From positions 186,001 to 250,000 of the forward strand of contig JAHCIQ010000004.1 of NCBI GenBank assembly GCA_026129135.1: 64,000 nucleotides of DNA. The letters are read 5' to 3'. Within the stretch, counting starts at the first letter, position 1. Each line of letters opens with the position of its first letter. Both the position numbers and the translations under genes were made by a program. Shown one piece after another: positions 46,411 to 53,783 of the stretch. The notes below the pieces were generated by a model that searched no databases, was not told the origin of the DNA, and was given only the letters and a program-made list of their open reading frames with translations. The stretch comes from Cyanobacteria bacterium TGS_CYA1. Lineage in GTDB: Bacteria; Cyanobacteriota; Vampirovibrionia; Obscuribacterales; Obscuribacteraceae.

Positions 46411-47232
46411 TCAAGATACGAGATCTGTAATTTTACGCATTAGTGGAACTAGTTTTTCCGCATCTGAGTCGAGAGTCAACGCTACAAGCAGTCCTCCTCC
46501 AAAATCTGCAATTATGGTATGACCTCTTGGTGTTTTATTTACTATTTGATGAACGCGCTCATGTCCAAATTTTCTCATGACATGTTCGGTATTCATATAT
46601 ACTCCAAGCGACCAGACGCCAATAGACTCTGCATCTACTTCTGTTGGCATGGTGTTTGCGATGAGTAAACCATCGTGACCAACAACTACACATCCAATGA
46701 CGCTTGGAACCTGACCAATTTCAAGTAGAAGTGTTTGCAAATCTTCTGATGCTTCAAGCGTTTGTTTTCTCAGTTCGAGTTCTGAGTTAGTAACGACAAG
46801 ATTCTTCAACTGGTCCAGATCTCTTTTGGTTAGCAGAAATTTTCCAGTCGCAAGTGGCGGAGGATCATTTGCTTTCTCGAAAAGCTTAAATTGATTGTGA
46901 CGTGATTTTATTGGACCAAGCATCAAGAGCCAGGTTTGAGATAGTTCAAAGGCTGTTATCACTATCTGGTCAGTTTGGAACGAAATGCATTCAAAGTTGC
47001 TGTAATTCAGGTCTTCTAAAGTAAGGTTGCAATTTTTGACAATGGCAAGAAAGCGAAATGAGATTAGTTCGGCGTCGAGGTCTGAGGGCAGGTCAGCTAA
47101 AAGCACACCACCTGACTGATTGATAATCATGTAACCAATCAGCGAGGTGTCCGCATTGAGACATGCAAGAAGCTGTTCTAGCCTCTGTCTTGAAAAATCG
47201 TCTTTGGGATCTGGTGCTTGGTCAGGACACAA
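46411..47232 (-). CDS. Roadblock/LC7-domain protein, duplicate of the giant protein's C-terminus
   Basis: The 273-residue protein seems to hold two Roadblock/LC7-type units: a diverged one (about 14-110, LIGYMIINQSGGVLLADLP) and a clear one (about 150-273, VVVGHDGLLIANTM, then SIGVWSLGVYMNTEHVMRK). The last 155 residues are very similar to the end of the upstream 1619-residue protein, including the shared ending PLMRKITDLVS. In bacteria such domains (MglB type) regulate small Ras-like GTPases, often as dimers. The start is TTG at 47232 inside the end of the upstream gene (11-base overlap). No small GTPase gene is in the window. Confidence 0.85.
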   Translation of the reverse strand: MCPDQAPDPKDDFSRQRLEQLLACLNADTSLIGYMIINQSGGVLLADLPSDLDAELISFRFLAIVKNCNLTLEDLNYSNFECISFQTDQIVITAFELSQTWLLMLGPIKSRHNQFKLFEKANDPPPLATGKFLLTKRDLDQLKNLVVTNSELELRKQTLEASEDLQTLLLEIGQVPSVIGCVVVGHDGLLIANTMPTEVDAESIGVWSLGVYMNTEHVMRKFGHERVHQIVNKTPRGHTIIADFGGGLLVALTLDSDAEKLVPLMRKITDLVS

Positions 47233-50200
47233 GGTCTGTGATTTTGCGCATCAACGGAATTAGCGTATCTGTGTCTGTGCCATCAGTTATGGTGACGAGC
47301 AAACCACCGCCAAAATCGGCGATGACAACGAATCCGCGAGGTGTGCGTGATACAATCTGGTGCACTCTTTCGTGACCCATTTTCTTCATGACGTGTTCAG
47401 TGTTCATGTAAACACCAAGTGACCAGACGCCGATAGACTCTGCATCTACTTCTTCTGGCATGGTGTTTGCGATGAGAAGGCCGTCGTGACCGACGATGAC
47501 AGATCCGATCACTCTTTGTTGAGTTCCGATTTCTTTGAGCAATGTTTGCAGGTCTTCGGATGCTTCAAGAGTCAAAACGCGCATCTTGAGTTCGGATTGC
47601 TCGGAGCCTGTGATTTTGCCAAGCTTTTCCATGTCACTCTGGTCGAGCAAGAATTTACCGATGGCTGCAATTCGTCCAGAACCAGTTTCTTGTTTTTCTG
47701 GACCAGCATCGAGTTTGCCGATACCTTCGATCTTGGGTGGTGGCAAACCAGGTGAAACTGCTTGAGCTTGCGATTCTGCCTGAGCAATTGGCATTGCAGG
47801 AGGTGTGTTGATTTGAATGGGCATTGGACCAGTCGAAGACATATCGAAATTCTGACCAGGCATCGGCATTTCAGCAGATCCAAATGCAGGAGGCATTGGT
47901 GCTCCACCAAAAGCTGGCGGTGCTGCGGCTGGAAAAGATGGCATTTCTGGCATTGGAATTGGTGGCGGTGGCTCTGGCATCGGAATAGGAGCCGGAGCCG
48001 GAACAGGTGCTGGCGCTGGAATTGGAGCTGCCACTGGTGGTGGTGCTGGAGGTGGAACAGGTGCAGGGACCGGAGCGGAACTCGCGTCGGGACCTTGCTC
48101 GCCTTCCGGAGTATTTTTGATCAACATTTTGTCAAAAATGCGATCCAATTCGGCATCGTTTACATTGAAGAGTTTGGACGGATCCATTGCCGCAGCAGGT
48201 GCGGGAGCTTGCGCCGGAGGTGGAACTGGTTCAGGAGCCGGTGGTGGCGCGGCCATTGGTGCCGGTGCTGGTGCAGGTTCGGGAAGAGGTGTGTAGCCCT
48301 CTGGCATTGCGATTGGTGGCATCGATGGTGCACCAAATGCTGGTGGCTGGCTGAAATCAAAAGCCGGAGCCGATGGCGGTGCTAAAGGTGCTTGAGGCAC
48401 TGGCGCCGGCATTGGTGCAGGTTCTGAGAATTGAGCGGGTGCCTGAGCTTGCGCATTTGCGCCACCGTTATCTTCGGGAGCGCCCATTTTTCTGTAGATT
48501 TCGTTGACCATCTGGTCATCGACTTTCATAATTCCGTTGCCGGGAGCAGCTTGTGCTGCTGCACCAAAGTCTGGAGCAGGGGCCGGCGGAGCTACAGGCA
48601 TGGGAGCTGGAGCCGTAGGTTGAGCAGGGGCGGGTGCGCCCCATACTGGAGGTGCTTGCTGTGCAGGCAGATTTCCAGCTGTTTGGTTCGCGAGTCTTTG
48701 TTCTTTAGTCGGAATAGGTTTGATGCGTGGAACAGACGGATCCGAAGGAGGTTCGGGCTCGGCTGGTGCACCCCATGCGGACATAACTGGAGGTGCAGTG
48801 GGTGGCAATGGGCTCGAATCGATAGGAGCCATTGGTGCAACATTTGGTATATTAGCCATGGCGGCAGGCACCGGTGGTGGTGGCGGCGTGGCTGGGGGAT
48901 CGAAAACTGAGGGAGCTGGCATTGGCGGCTCGGGCATGGGGACTGGTGCTGCTTCTTGCGCTGCAGGAGCCTGTCCTGCTCCGGGATTGACCATTGCGCC
49001 AGAGCGCATCAGGTCGTCTTGAACACCAAGATTTTCTTTGAAAACTTTATCTATAGCCTGGTCATCTATTTTCTTGCCAAACAAATTGTTGCTCGCAACT
49101 TCTGGCGCCGGAGCTGGAGCTGGTGCGGGTGGTGGAACTGGAGCTTGAGAAAAAGTTCCCTGTCCAAAGCCAGGAATAGATGCTGAAGAAGAACTATTTG
49201 GGTCGAATTGAGGAATTGCGGCTGTTGGCAGTGAGCCGAAGTTTGGCTGCTCCATCTGAGGCACAGGCGGTACAGGTTGTGGTGGTGCGGCTGGTGCTTC
49301 ACCCCATGGGCTTGCTGTTTCGTTGCCACCGCCACCGCTACCCCATGGATTAGCAGGATTGACAGCAGGTGCTGCAGCAGTTGCAGGTGCTGGCATCGGA
49401 GCTGGAGTGGGAGCTGGTGCTGGGTCTCCCCAGGGATTTGCTGCAGCCGGTGCAGGTGCTGGCGCTGGCGCCGGAGCTGGTGGCGGTGGAGCTGAAGTTG
49501 TGAGACCTTCGCCAGTAAATTGAAAAGCTTTGAATGAGCCAGTTTCCATTTGCTCGCTTTGGAGCTGCCAGCTTTCTCTAGCAGCTGCAGCTTTGTTTTC
49601 CGCTGGTGCTTCTTGTGCAGGAGCTGCTCCACCCCACGGATTTGGTGGTGCGGATTTAGATCCCCAGCCGCCCGTTGAGGACAAGTCTTGAGGCGCTTCT
49701 GCAGCAGGAGCCTGAGCTGGAGCTTGCATACCCCAGCCGCCAGAACTGGCATTGTCAGCAAATGCAGGAGCAGGTGGTGGCGCAGGTGGTGCTGCCTCCA
49801 TAGGCGCCTGGGGAGGGGCTCCCCAACCGCCAGTATTTGAATTATCTGTGAAAGACGGCGCTGGAGCAGGAGCAGGTGCGGGAGCCGGTGCAGGCGCTTG
49901 AGGGGTAGGGATACCCCATCCACTATTCAAATCTTGGGCCGGTTCTGCAACAGGTGCTGGTGCAGGTGGAGCACCCCAACCAGGATTAGATTCTTGTGGT
50001 GCACCGTTCCATTGATTGTCTTGCTTGCCCCAGGAGTTTGGAACTTGTTGCTCTTCTACAACTGGTGCTGGAGCCGCGCTCCAACTTCCACTGGTGCTCG
50101 GCGCGGGTGCCGGAGCTGGTGGTGTTTCGGGAACGCCCCAGGCAGATGCGGCTGATTCAGCAGGTTTTGCTTGGGCAGAATTGCCCCATTCACCTGTAGT

Positions 50201-52081
50201 GAAGCCTGAGCTTGATTCGCCTTGAGATTTGGGAAGACCCCAACCGCCAGTGCTGCCTACTTGATCTGCTGCAGGAGCACTTGGCTCACTCTTCATTTCT
50301 TGTACTGCATTTGATTGCCAGGAACCGCCAGCAAGACTTGGAGGAGTAGCCCACGTGCCAGAACTGGTCGCGTTGAAGCCACTACTATTGGTGCTGGTTT
50401 GAGCTGCTGCAGGTGTCGTTGGTGCCCATTCGCCCGAAGATATCGCTTCGTTATTAACGCTCCAGCTAGAGCCAGATGCTTGAGAGTCAGTCGAATTTCC
50501 ACCCCAGGAATTAGACCCAAAACTGGCTGTTGAACCGCCGGGAGCGGAGCCGCCCCAAGAAGATGAATTATCAGGGGCTTGTGTAGGAGCAGGAGTTACT
50601 GCTGGTGCTGGTGGTGTTGCTCCCCATGATGAAGCCGTTTCCGGAGCAGCAGGAGCTGCGCCCCACGAAGAGCCGGCAGGTGCTTGCGCTGTATCCTGGT
50701 TTGCGGCAGGAAACGGTGCTGCTGACCAACCACCTGACGTGGTTGGTGAAGGAGCTTGGGCAGGTGGTGCCGGGGGTGGTGCTCCCCATGAGCCACCGCC
50801 TGAGTATCCAGGACCGGGCATGGGATTCCATCCGCTATCTGTAGATGTTTGAGATTGTCCTCCAGCGGGTGCTGGAACGGGTGAAGAAGGAGCCAGTCCG
50901 ATTGGCGAGCTTGTTACTCCGCCAAAATTAGATGGCGGTTGAATTGGTTGAAAGCCCGAATCTTGAGATGGGCTTGGCGAGCCAAAATTGGAAGTTTGTC
51001 CCCAACTGCCCGCTGGAGCCGGAGCACCAAATTGATTATTGGCTGGTGCTTGATTTGGAGCGGATTCTTCCCATGCGCCACCTGCAGGAGGTGGACCCCA
51101 TTCAGACTCGTCGTCCGCAGCATCGTGGCCTTTAGGTGGAGCACTCTGCCATGCGGCTTGTCCTTGCTGCTGAGGCGCCATGCCCAGACCCATTCCCATA
51201 CCTGAGCCTGGAATCGGACCCTGACTAAGACCAATGCCTGCGCCACCAGGAGGCGGTGCAAGACCAATAGAGCTGCCTGGGTGTTGGGTATCGAATTGCG
51301 ATTGAGCTGCTGGTGGCTGATTCCACTGATCGGGGGCATTTTGCATTTGACCAGGAACTGGATCGGGATTGCCAAATGAATTTGGTGCGCGTCCTTGTGA
51401 CCAGTCTGCAGGCCCGCCACTGCCTTCGGTTCCAGATTGTGTATTCCATCGGTCGCTAGACTGTTGATCTTCGGTACCGTCTGGAATTTTGTTCGATTCG
51501 GTCACTTTTCGGCGAATTGTTTCTGCCAGAGTAAGGGGCGCTTCGTCAGCGATACTTTCTGTACCAGTTTCAAAACCGAATTTGCGACCAAGCGATCCTG
51601 TGGTGGATTGTTGTTCTCTACTGTCACGCATTTCGGACTGAGCCGTACTGCGTCCCATCGATTTCAAACGTTTGGTTACGCCATCGTCATCGTCCATTGA
51701 AGGATATGAGCCTTTTTTGCCCTTTTTCTTGTCTTTGGGCTCGGCACCGCTTTTGTGCGGAAATGAAGAGGTCGAGGATTTTGGCTGGGACTTGGAACCA
51801 CCGCCGCCACCAAACATAGAGGTAATTGCACCGAATATGTTTGCCTTTTGTTGCGGCAATTGCTGTTGAACTTGCTTGGTAAGCGATTCTGGATTAGGCG
51901 GCATATACTCGTCTGGTAACGGCGCCTCTTCAGCTCCTTCTATCATTTGCACCATCTGATGATCAAAACGAGCACAGGATTCGCAAGCTTCCAAATGCGA
52001 ATCGAGCGAGCCGGACTGCTGACGGCTCAAGTCCTCGTCAAATCGTTTTTGAATTAAGTGTCTAAATTCGGCGCAGTTCAT
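47222..52081 (-). CDS. Giant anti-sigma zinc-finger/Roadblock protein with Pro-Ala-Trp-Gly-rich region
   Basis: The 1619-residue protein has three parts. Residues 1-50 form an anti-sigma zinc finger (Cys3, His29, Cys33, Cys36 in HLEACESC), and the gene follows an ECF-like sigma gene. Residues about 80-1460 are low-complexity, rich in Pro, Ala, Gly, Ser and Gln, with about thirty tryptophans mostly in W-G motifs (SSWG, GGWG, NPWG). Three short helical motifs interrupt it near 1003, 1183 and 1303. Residues 1465-1619 are a Roadblock/LC7 domain (IVGHDGLLIANTMPEEVDA). There is no transmembrane helix, unlike most anti-sigma factors. A scaffold coupling GTPase-type signalling to the sigma factor is inferred. 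The reading frame is open throughout. Confidence 0.85.
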   Translation of the reverse strand: MNCAEFRHLIQKRFDEDLSRQQSGSLDSHLEACESCARFDHQMVQMIEGAEEAPLPDEYMPPNPESLTKQVQQQLPQQKANIFGAITSMFGGGGGSKSQPKSSTSSFPHKSGAEPKDKKKGKKGSYPSMDDDDGVTKRLKSMGRSTAQSEMRDSREQQSTTGSLGRKFGFETGTESIADEAPLTLAETIRRKVTESNKIPDGTEDQQSSDRWNTQSGTEGSGGPADWSQGRAPNSFGNPDPVPGQMQNAPDQWNQPPAAQSQFDTQHPGSSIGLAPPPGGAGIGLSQGPIPGSGMGMGLGMAPQQQGQAAWQSAPPKGHDAADDESEWGPPPAGGAWEESAPNQAPANNQFGAPAPAGSWGQTSNFGSPSPSQDSGFQPIQPPSNFGGVTSSPIGLAPSSPVPAPAGGQSQTSTDSGWNPMPGPGYSGGGSWGAPPPAPPAQAPSPTTSGGWSAAPFPAANQDTAQAPAGSSWGAAPAAPETASSWGATPPAPAVTPAPTQAPDNSSSWGGSAPGGSTASFGSNSWGGNSTDSQASGSSWSVNNEAISSGEWAPTTPAAAQTSTNSSGFNATSSGTWATPPSLAGGSWQSNAVQEMKSEPSAPAADQVGSTGGWGLPKSQGESSSGFTTGEWGNSAQAKPAESAASAWGVPETPPAPAPAPSTSGSWSAAPAPVVEEQQVPNSWGKQDNQWNGAPQESNPGWGAPPAPAPVAEPAQDLNSGWGIPTPQAPAPAPAPAPAPAPSFTDNSNTGGWGAPPQAPMEAAPPAPPPAPAFADNASSGGWGMQAPAQAPAAEAPQDLSSTGGWGSKSAPPNPWGGAAPAQEAPAENKAAAARESWQLQSEQMETGSFKAFQFTGEGLTTSAPPPPAPAPAPAPAPAAANPWGDPAPAPTPAPMPAPATAAAPAVNPANPWGSGGGGNETASPWGEAPAAPPQPVPPVPQMEQPNFGSLPTAAIPQFDPNSSSSASIPGFGQGTFSQAPVPPPAPAPAPAPEVASNNLFGKKIDDQAIDKVFKENLGVQDDLMRSGAMVNPGAGQAPAAQEAAPVPMPEPPMPAPSVFDPPATPPPPPVPAAMANIPNVAPMAPIDSSPLPPTAPPVMSAWGAPAEPEPPSDPSVPRIKPIPTKEQRLANQTAGNLPAQQAPPVWGAPAPAQPTAPAPMPVAPPAPAPDFGAAAQAAPGNGIMKVDDQMVNEIYRKMGAPEDNGGANAQAQAPAQFSEPAPMPAPVPQAPLAPPSAPAFDFSQPPAFGAPSMPPIAMPEGYTPLPEPAPAPAPMAAPPPAPEPVPPPAQAPAPAAAMDPSKLFNVNDAELDRIFDKMLIKNTPEGEQGPDASSAPVPAPVPPPAPPPVAAPIPAPAPVPAPAPIPMPEPPPPIPMPEMPSFPAAAPPAFGGAPMPPAFGSAEMPMPGQNFDMSSTGPMPIQINTPPAMPIAQAESQAQAVSPGLPPPKIEGIGKLDAGPEKQETGSGRIAAIGKFLLDQSDMEKLGKITGSEQSELKMRVLTLEASEDLQTLLKEIGTQQRVIGSVIVGHDGLLIANTMPEEVDAESIGVWSLGVYMNTEHVMKKMGHERVHQIVSRTPRGFVVIADFGGGLLVTITDGTDTDTLIPLMRKITDLVS

Positions 52082-52144
52082 ATTTTTTTCTTGTGAGCCA
52101 AAATGGCCCGGTAATCTTCCTTAAAAAGCCTTCTATTATAGATC

Positions 52145-52720
52145 TTATCCTTTTCCCAGACATTTAATGATGGAAACTCTTGCACGGTAAAGAGCTGCCA
52201 TGCTCATTTCAACTGATTGATTCATCACTGCTGCAATTTGTTCGTAGTTCAAATCGAGCGAGTGACGTAAGTAAAAAGCTTTCTGTTGCTCAGGAGGTAA
52301 AGAGCTAATACAGCGTTTGATTCGCGGAAGTCCAAGCAAGACGGTGGTTTCCCAGTCCATGCTGGCAGAGCCATCCTGACCAGGATCGATATTGGGATTG
52401 TCGTCGGGGATACCAGAATTCTGGGCGTGATACTCGACACAAGCGTCAACCACGAAATCGGCAAGCCATTGCCATATGGTTAGTCCACTGTCTTTTTTAG
52501 GAATACTGTCTTGCAAAGAAGTGAGTGCGTTGCGAAACGCCTCAATAGTCAGCTCCTGAGCGTGTTCTTGATTGTCAGAAGCTATAAAGGCAATAGCGTA
52601 AACCCTTTCGAGGTTTAGATAGACGAATTCGTTACGCTTTTCATCCCCGCCTTTTTTGATTTCATTCAAAATCGAGGTGGCTGATGTGTTTAGGTTCTTG
52701 CTTGATGGTAAAAGAGCCAT
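52145..52720 (-). CDS. ECF-like RNA polymerase sigma factor
   Basis: The 191-residue protein has the two-domain layout of ECF sigma factors. A sigma2-like region spans about 25-95 (VYLNLERVYAIAFIASDNQE, AQELTIEAFRNALTSL). A well-conserved sigma4 follows at 135-190 (LPPEQQKAFYLRHSLDLNYE, QIAAVMNQSVEMSMAALYRA). The sigma2 part is diverged and lacks a clear -10-recognition helix. The gene directly precedes the zinc-finger anti-sigma gene (63 bases), the classical sigma/anti-sigma order. Its target promoters are unknown; no ECF-type GGAAC/CGTC autopromoter was recognised upstream. Confidence 0.82.
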   Translation of the reverse strand: MALLPSSKNLNTSATSILNEIKKGGDEKRNEFVYLNLERVYAIAFIASDNQEHAQELTIEAFRNALTSLQDSIPKKDSGLTIWQWLADFVVDACVEYHAQNSGIPDDNPNIDPGQDGSASMDWETTVLLGLPRIKRCISSLPPEQQKAFYLRHSLDLNYEQIAAVMNQSVEMSMAALYRARVSIIKCLGKG

Positions 52721-52798
52721 TTATTTTTGTTGTTTCCGGCTTTTTATTTAATCCCTTTAGTTGAAGTACCCAAAAATTGCTCCAATGGATACAATTCA

Positions 52799-52817
52799 TG
52801 CCTGAGACTGTCAGGCA
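52799..52817. repeat. Small stem-loop upstream of the sigma gene
   Basis: TGCCTGA (52799-52805) and TCAGGCA (52811-52817) are exact inverted repeats around a five-base loop, in the 295-base divergent region between the sigma gene and the 255-residue protein gene. A third partial copy (GCCTGA) lies about 30 bases on. It could be a regulatory site. The rest of this region shows no gene. Confidence 0.4.
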
Positions 52818-53015
52818 CAAGGCACGGATTAACTACCCTTGCCTGATTAGATGATTCAAAAGAGATTTATCCCGAGTCGCCAAATGTCTTATAACTAGTT
52901 TTTGAGCGGACCAATCAAATGGTCAGGTGCTCAAATCCCCCTCCTTTTTAAGATGTACCACAATTATTAAACTTATACGCTAATCCTTATTCTCTCTATT
53001 AGTTATTAGACAAAG

Positions 53016-53783
53016 ATGGCAACTCAAAATATCTCTAAATTTAAAATTGAAAGTCTGGAACCGACCAGTTTTAGCCTGTTCAACGTCACCAGAGAGCCGC
53101 GTGCTTTCGCACCTGACGACATCAAAGCAGCTTGTAACAATCTGGTAATCAGAGAATTGTCTGATTCTCCAGTCAAACTGAGCAGCCCGAGCCAGTTTTT
53201 CTTGCATTATCTGTTTACCGACTATTTTCAAAGGGCTCATCAATCTGGTTTGTACAATCGTCAGCGCGAATTATTCGAAGCTATTGGCAAAGTAGAATAT
53301 GGTGAAAGCGAGCCTGTTAGTTACGGGATGTTTTTCAACAAGGTTTTATGGCCTTGCAACGACATCACACTTTTCGATAAAGACAAAAATCCGCTTATAG
53401 TGGCAAGAGTGGTGGACGAAAAAGATAGCGCAGTTTCAGAGCGCACCGACAAAAGCAATGCAATGGACTGGTTGCGCAATTTCGTGGATAAGCTGAATAA
53501 ATTGCAGACCAGAAAAAATTGTGTCGCCGGCGCATTTTTCGCTTTCGTAGGCGATTTTCCTTTAGATCTCAAAGCGCGTGTCGAAAATTTAATTGGTGTT
53601 TCAGATCCTGTCGCAAGATACGATTGCAAGCTGCCGCCGCCTGCTATGCTTTCACTCAATCTGCTTGAAATGCACAAGAATGGTGATACCGCATATGATG
53701 ACGAGCAACAAGTAGAAGACGAGCAAGAACTGCTCGATTACAGTTATCGAGGTGTGCTGGTTTTACCTCAACTCAAGAATTAG
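53016..53783 (+). CDS. Protein of unknown function
   Basis: The 255-residue soluble protein has no signal peptide. Alternating helical and strand segments include FFLHYLFTDYFQRAHQSGLY, MFFNKVLWPCNDITLFDKDK, and CVAGAFFAFVGDFPLDLKAR, the last resembling a nuclease- or lyase-like core strand. The C-terminal 40 residues are acidic, then end in LVLPQLKN. No motif is diagnostic. It is divergent from the sigma/giant-protein operon and overlaps the convergent acyl-CoA carboxylase gene by four bases. The coding call is firm from length and composition; the function is open. Confidence 0.78.
   Translation: MATQNISKFKIESLEPTSFSLFNVTREPRAFAPDDIKAACNNLVIRELSDSPVKLSSPSQFFLHYLFTDYFQRAHQSGLYNRQRELFEAIGKVEYGESEPVSYGMFFNKVLWPCNDITLFDKDKNPLIVARVVDEKDSAVSERTDKSNAMDWLRNFVDKLNKLQTRKNCVAGAFFAFVGDFPLDLKARVENLIGVSDPVARYDCKLPPPAMLSLNLLEMHKNGDTAYDDEQQVEDEQELLDYSYRGVLVLPQLKN

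Follow-up and report, generated by a model that had tools for sequence, protein, structure and literature searches.

A conserved pairing of an ECF-type sigma factor with a giant anti-sigma/Roadblock scaffold in the Obscuribacterales

The window analysed here, a stretch of 64,000 nucleotides from Cyanobacteria bacterium TGS_CYA1 (contig JAHCIQ010000004.1, positions 186,001 to 250,000), comes from a genome of Candidatus Obscuribacterales, an order of cyanobacteria that do not photosynthesise; the genome comprises 4.26 Mb in 16 contigs. Its minus strand carries a gene for a sigma factor of the extracytoplasmic function (ECF) type, followed by a very long gene whose product, referred to here as the scaffold, joins an anti-sigma domain at its N-terminus to a Roadblock/LC7 domain at its C-terminus, and then by a gene for a second Roadblock protein. 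In window positions, the three genes and the two terminal domains of the scaffold are:

52145..52720, minus strand: ECF-type sigma gene, 191 amino acids
47222..52081, minus strand: scaffold gene (anti-sigma domain, disordered linker, Roadblock), 1619 amino acids
51842..52081, minus strand: class I anti-sigma domain of the scaffold, RsiW-like (residues 1-80), with putative zinc ligands Cys3, His29, Cys33 and Cys36
47225..47584, minus strand: C-terminal Roadblock/LC7 domain of the scaffold, residues 1500-1619, over the Pfam cut-off
46411..47232, minus strand: tandem Roadblock protein gene, 273 amino acids, TTG start, overlapping the end of the scaffold gene by 11 base pairs

An earlier note on this DNA, made by a model from the letters and their open reading frames, had described the three reading frames with exactly these coordinates and this strand. 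It had also recorded the overlap of the 273-residue gene with the scaffold stop, and the TTG start indeed lies inside the end of the scaffold gene.

The conserved unit consists of the sigma gene and the scaffold gene. Wherever both ends are present, in 26 loci representing about 20 genera, the two adjoin, with a spacing from -51 base pairs (an early start call) to +84 base pairs, and they are also adjacent in loci cut by contig ends. A second family (f2) keeps the pair as well, complete with a gap of 120 base pairs in one locus (L127) and truncated in another (L128). By full-family match, the sigma factor is present in 50 of the 53 genomes of the order; G007, G018 and G037, of which G018 is 98% complete, have neither this match nor a strong scaffold match, and at E<=1e-15 the sigma factor is absent from 141 genomes that belong to other orders within the class. 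The existence and conservation of the pair and of its architecture are well supported; since nearly every genome of the order has it, it is no oddity of a single assembly. The earlier note had let its proposal stand or fall with the sigma gene staying beside the scaffold gene in relatives, and it stays there in every one of the 26 loci. No description of a fusion between anti-sigma and Roadblock domains was found among the open-access papers that the literature searches listed.

The ECF assignment made for the sigma gene in the earlier note was upheld by profile and full-length structural matches, which give its product regions 2 and 4 with an ECF fold. Pfam detects region 4 and NCBIfam the ECF superfamily; a profile of 20 relatives, compared with solved ECF sigma factors, matched over residues 12-187 AlgU (2e-9), Escherichia coli sigma-E (1or7; 4e-8) and SigW (1.5e-7). 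The structure model has a mean predicted local distance difference test score (pLDDT) of 80; its top structural match is mycobacterial SigE, and matches two to four are SigW from SigW-RsiW complexes.

The head of the scaffold, its N-terminal 81 residues scanned alone, matches the Pfam model zf-HC2 with 23.8 bits against a cut-off of 22.2, and 18 of 20 scaffold relatives match the same model at E<=0.01. The NCBIfam model antisigmaE matches the head from the window at 8e-9, which lies under its strict curated cut-off, and the NCBIfam anti-sigma model is matched by 16 of the 20 relatives. When the family profile of the head was compared with the PDB, RsiW (5wuq_C) was the sole significant match, over positions 1-79 (E=5e-7). 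The anti-sigma zinc finger claimed previously (His29, Cys33, Cys36), on whose scoring as an anti-sigma domain the proposal also depended, thus agrees with the RsiW and zf-HC2 matches; these residues, together with an additional conserved cysteine, Cys3, are present in most lineages of the family. Like the class I zinc anti-sigma factors RsiW of Bacillus subtilis, RsrA and ChrR, the scaffold has an N-terminal domain that aligns along RsiW and a gene directly after that of an ECF sigma factor. Unlike them, it has no transmembrane helix or known sensor domain and instead possesses a motif-bearing disordered linker of about 1380 residues and a Roadblock end, and the zinc ligands are dispensable in its family.

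At the other end of the 1619-residue protein, the Roadblock/LC7 domain recognized in the earlier note exceeds the Pfam cut-off, as does the Roadblock end of the 273-residue protein; the Roadblock profile matches Roadblocks in the PDB, and CvnB5 is a weak sequence match. The 273-residue protein is a tandem double Roadblock of which Pfam sees the second half only. In its predicted structure both halves form a complete Roadblock fold; pLDDT exceeds 90 in the second and is lower in the first, and the structural matches include Asgard Roadblocks, Ragulator subunits and MglB. The three-gene module proposed in the earlier note did not survive, as the third gene is not conserved and its second half duplicates the Roadblock end of the scaffold. 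Among the loci read, extra Roadblock genes directly behind the scaffold occur only in the window and in G028. Because each copy groups with the scaffold end of its own locus in the Roadblock tree (support 87/80 in the window, 81-89 in G028), we are moderately sure that these copies, which have long branches, look like separate lineage-specific duplications. Further Roadblock-ended proteins are encoded at L158-L172 (for example L159:1396-3234, L160:1520-3601 and L158:1192-2004); several have anti-sigma-like N-termini, some of them without zinc ligands, and no sigma gene of the family seen in the window adjoins them.

The part between head and Roadblock end, described previously as about 1380 disordered residues, is indeed disordered in composition and rich in Pro, Ala and Gly; it is not featureless, as it holds conserved islands and a repeated motif. 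The total length of the scaffold varies with the linker from 744 to 1845 amino acids, and Cys is absent from the linker in 26 of the 27 scaffolds compared. Islands were located by comparing the scaffold with 19 relatives window by window along the protein; the features of the linker are:

48641..51448, minus strand: Trp-Gly repeat region, 22 WG against 3.7 expected from linker shuffles (maximum of 5000 shuffles, 11)
51578..51625, minus strand: linker island 1, residues 153-168, DSREQQSTTGSLGRKF, conserved among relatives
51491..51538, minus strand: linker island 2, residues 182-197, PLTLAETIRRKVTESN, conserved among relatives
49523..49570, minus strand: linker island 3, residues 838-853, WQLQSEQMETGSFKAF, conserved among relatives
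49022..49075, minus strand: DDxxIDxIF motif, copy 1
48482..48529, minus strand: DDxxIDxIF motif, copy 2
48119..48169, minus strand: DDxxIDxIF motif, copy 3, NDAELDRIF, a looser match
47621..47680, minus strand: lead-in to the Roadblock domain, residues 1468-1487, SGRIAAIGKFLLDQ..., conserved

A further conserved island lies at about residue 1447. The motif, in full FxxDDxxIDxIFxxNLGV, occurs two to three times, strict and loose copies counted together, towards the end of the linker in 27 of 27 scaffolds, and its strict copies number 63 in these proteins against 0.016 expected from shuffles. When the motif profile was run against seven whole genomes, every match at E<0.001 fell inside the scaffold, and the next four matches in the genome of the window (E 0.018-0.06) were all located in one membrane-anchored Roadblock protein. 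The motif resembles the C-terminus of CheZ and the N-terminus of FliM. A CheY-docking reading was rejected and is a lead at most, as the motif profile gave chance matches only against PDB chains of at least 20 residues.

The membrane-anchored protein (L063:6993-10343, contig C15 of G000, the genome of the window) has 1116 amino acids and is unlinked to the sigma-scaffold operon. It comprises hydrophobic N-terminal helices, a disordered linker, five to six copies of the motif and a Roadblock end, and both this end and the IGKxLxDQ lead-in are common to it and the scaffold. In the comparison of eleven relatives, the Obscuribacterales copies of its motif reach a score, as none of 220 shuffled sequences did. 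Its gene sits behind pheS/pheT in this genome and in relatives. In other classes of Cyanobacteriota, the 3' flank was read at seven loci with relatives of the membrane scaffold, and in each of them pilB follows directly or after an intervening Roadblock gene, usually accompanied by pilT and pilC (assigned by a Pfam check in two loci and by reading of the N-termini in the others). A standalone Roadblock gene follows the membrane-scaffold relative at a distance of at most about ten bases in 5 of the 11 loci first fetched. In five of the seven pilus loci a sigma-70 gene that comprises regions 2, 3 and 4 lies nearby (L216, L217, L218, L221 and L222), and L216-L218 also have a standalone Roadblock gene directly behind the Roadblock scaffold. 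The genome of the window contains, elsewhere, pilB-pilT-pilC followed by a similar sigma gene. The pilus operons of deep Cyanobacteriota may hold a pilus-linked sigma system.

These pilus-operon scaffolds and the pheT-linked membrane protein resemble the scaffold of the window in their Pro/Ala-rich disordered linker, repeated short motifs, IGKxLxDQ lead-in and C-terminal Roadblock. They differ in having a membrane or other N-terminus in place of an anti-sigma domain, and the sigma factor near the pilus operons is of the region 2-3-4 type, not ECF; neither an anti-sigma domain nor a related ECF sigma factor was found at the distant membrane-scaffold loci. A repeat of the pilus scaffolds, LDSALDDLFG, resembles the linker motif by eye, but the motif profile scored no such copy in the 11 proteins that passed a filter, and homology of the two is conjectural. 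In the simplest history, an ancient pilus-linked Roadblock scaffold would have given rise to an Obscuribacterales copy with an anti-sigma N-terminus and its own ECF partner.

Roadblock proteins are known across the domains of life as regulators of small GTPases, frequently as members of heteromeric complexes, and the type IV pili of Myxococcus are under the control of MglA and the Roadblock protein MglB (PMC9481161). A search for small GTPases elsewhere in the genome, suggested by the earlier note, found two of MglA type (L139 and L140), encoded on other contigs. Of the 53 genomes of the order, 50 encode MglA, and identity among the best copies is mostly 84-96%; L139 is the exceptionally conserved one, and L140 adjoins a DUF4388 gene. 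The likeness to the MglA/MglB polarity system of Myxococcus xanthus (with MglC, RomR and RomY) lies in the presence of Roadblock and MglA-type GTPase in one genome and in the type IV pilus link in relatives. In contrast to that system, the Roadblock of the scaffold is fused to an anti-sigma domain and no GTPase gene is adjacent. Actinobacterial conservons (cvn: histidine kinase, Roadblock, unknown protein, GTPase) likewise place a Roadblock protein in a signalling operon, and CvnB5 belongs to them; the scaffold operon, however, has neither GTPase nor histidine kinase, its output is a sigma/anti-sigma pair, and the cvn gene order was not seen.

We consider the chances about even that a soluble anti-sigma scaffold couples an ECF sigma factor to a Roadblock/MglA/pilus platform. 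The sigma factor and the scaffold would form a cognate pair of ECF sigma and soluble class I anti-sigma factor, with sigma held by the anti-sigma domain. The linker would act as a scaffold, with its Trp-Gly repeats and two to three docking peptides (DDxxIDxIF), and these peptides would recruit a partner common to the membrane-anchored Roadblock scaffold. The C-terminal Roadblock would dimerise with itself, with the membrane scaffold or with one of the standalone Roadblock proteins, and would serve as a platform on which an MglA-type GTPase could act. What governs the release of sigma would then be the state of this platform (nucleotide state of the GTPase, surface contact or pilus activity), and not a membrane signal or zinc redox. 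In this scheme we infer the binding of sigma, the partners of the Roadblock and of the motif, the signal and the regulon. GTPase- or pilus-gated release is a reasoned proposal that we place somewhere between doubtful and evenly balanced; the condensate-like state raised in the earlier note is a conjecture beyond it. Its most specific form, in which the Ras-like GTPase MglA directly gates sigma via the Roadblock platform of the scaffold, coupling cell-surface or pilus polarity to transcription in a branch derived from an ancient pilus-operon Roadblock scaffold, is tentative and rather unlikely. The known inputs of anti-sigma factors are membrane proteolysis, partner switching, metals and redox; an input through a GTPase platform, if true, would add a novel mode of transcriptional control in which gene expression is linked to the state of the surface or of the pili. 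Beyond the module, disordered Roadblock scaffolds turn out to form a set that is spread over Cyanobacteriota, with several members in pilus operons and with MglA, PilB and the paralogous scaffold as candidate partners.

Several points weigh against such a coupling. The operon lacks a GTPase gene, both mglA genes are on other contigs, and the pilus genes of this genome are on another contig as well. G018 has MglA without the sigma-scaffold module, so MglA is independent of the module. GTPase-activating protein activity of the MglB type cannot be read from sequence. The sigma factor is devoid of signature DNA-contact residues and may therefore not drive transcription in the ordinary manner, and no shared regulon promoter was found, exact conserved 13-mers occurring only at the sigma-scaffold operon.

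Another explanation, possible though in our judgment doubtful, is that the Roadblock end has no GTPase role and is a dimerisation tether to the membrane Roadblock scaffold, with sigma controlled by localisation alone. The lead-in, Roadblock and motif common to the two proteins are consistent with it. Roadblock-Roadblock pairing is suggested by the duplicates that arose at least twice directly behind the scaffold, in the window and in G028, and by the several relatives of the membrane scaffold with a Roadblock gene directly behind. However, this explanation is compatible with a GTPase too. GTPases usually have Roadblock dimers as their platforms, and the genomes contain a highly conserved MglA.

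A further explanation, which we regard as unlikely, is that sigma is a sigma-like adaptor and not a promoter reader; it would occupy the anti-sigma domain of the scaffold, and the output would be protein assembly or the release of another sigma factor. A precedent is the sigma-like domain of PhyR, which is a decoy for NepR, and such domains are among the weaker structural matches of the modelled sigma. In region 2.3/2.4 the sigma family reads WLxxFIVDxxxEYHxQxS, whereas all 12 control ECF sigma factors from related genomes have a WLxxIAxNxxLNxIR-like sequence; Asn is replaced by Asp, Lys and Arg are nearly gone, and the mean net charge is -2.1 against +0.6 in the controls. The VK/VR with which the region-4 helix begins in the 12 controls has likewise disappeared, and the stretch between regions 2 and 4, DPxxDGSAxMDWETTV, is near-invariant and among the best conserved parts of the protein. 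On the other hand, the fold is intact as a whole, and the helix of region 4 is still basic (net +2.3). ECF factors differ in promoter specificity, and an altered -10 contact therefore need not abolish DNA binding; the promoter-contact signature of regions 2.4/4.2, which this sigma factor does not show, is not a strict criterion of the ECF family. Its loss lowers the claim that sigma is an ordinary ECF factor and suggests either altered promoter recognition or a protein turning into a sigma-like adaptor.

Zinc chemistry explains the module least well. In favor of an RsrA-like zinc/redox anti-sigma factor, with the remainder of the scaffold as filler, are the presence of Cys3, His29, Cys33 and Cys36, a weak match of the head to the RsrA model, and the enrichment of zinc motifs among soluble class I anti-sigma factors, whose groups are known to mix zinc and non-zinc members (PMC7406223). 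The RsrA-type signature (Hx3Cx2C with an upstream Cys) occurs in the window and is not conserved across the family: the ligand positions are Asp3, His29, Ser33 and Gly36 in L037, L038, L042, L051 and L057, and Asp3 (shifted one residue by the start call), Phe29, Ser33 and Cys36 in L055. Because these zinc-less scaffolds fall in two separate groups of the tree of Roadblock ends, each with zinc-bearing members, the ligands must have disappeared on no fewer than two occasions, with sigma, scaffold and gene order retained. Zinc redox sensing is therefore rejected as the common function of the family, the conserved linker islands and motifs are not filler, and the explanation, very improbable overall, could hold in zinc-bearing lineages. 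Cys137 of sigma is invariant and Cys187 nearly so, and both are kept where the anti-sigma zinc ligands are lost.

Upstream of sigma, relatives share the elements GTAAACTG and CGTGGTACATCTA. The region 52721-53015 of the window is without GTAAACTG and contains one conserved element:

52950..52960, minus strand: conserved promoter-region element, form TGGTACATCTT, the version of CGTGGTACATCTA found in the window

Exact CGTGGTACATCTA occurs once per genome in four relatives, upstream of the sigma-scaffold operon, and GTAAACTG as an exact 13-mer is likewise confined to one copy at this operon in the genomes that have it. A shared regulon promoter was rejected on the genomes searched, and both elements seem to be control sites of this particular operon rather than the motif of a regulon.

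The sigma, scaffold and 273-residue Roadblock genes are convergent with msrA and dnaK; the neighbours in the window (these two, a divergent unknown gene and a carboxylase gene) include no kinase or GTPase gene. The divergent gene (53016-53783) encodes 255 amino acids with no Pfam family above cut-off, and it stays beside sigma in the second family too (L127, L128, L129).

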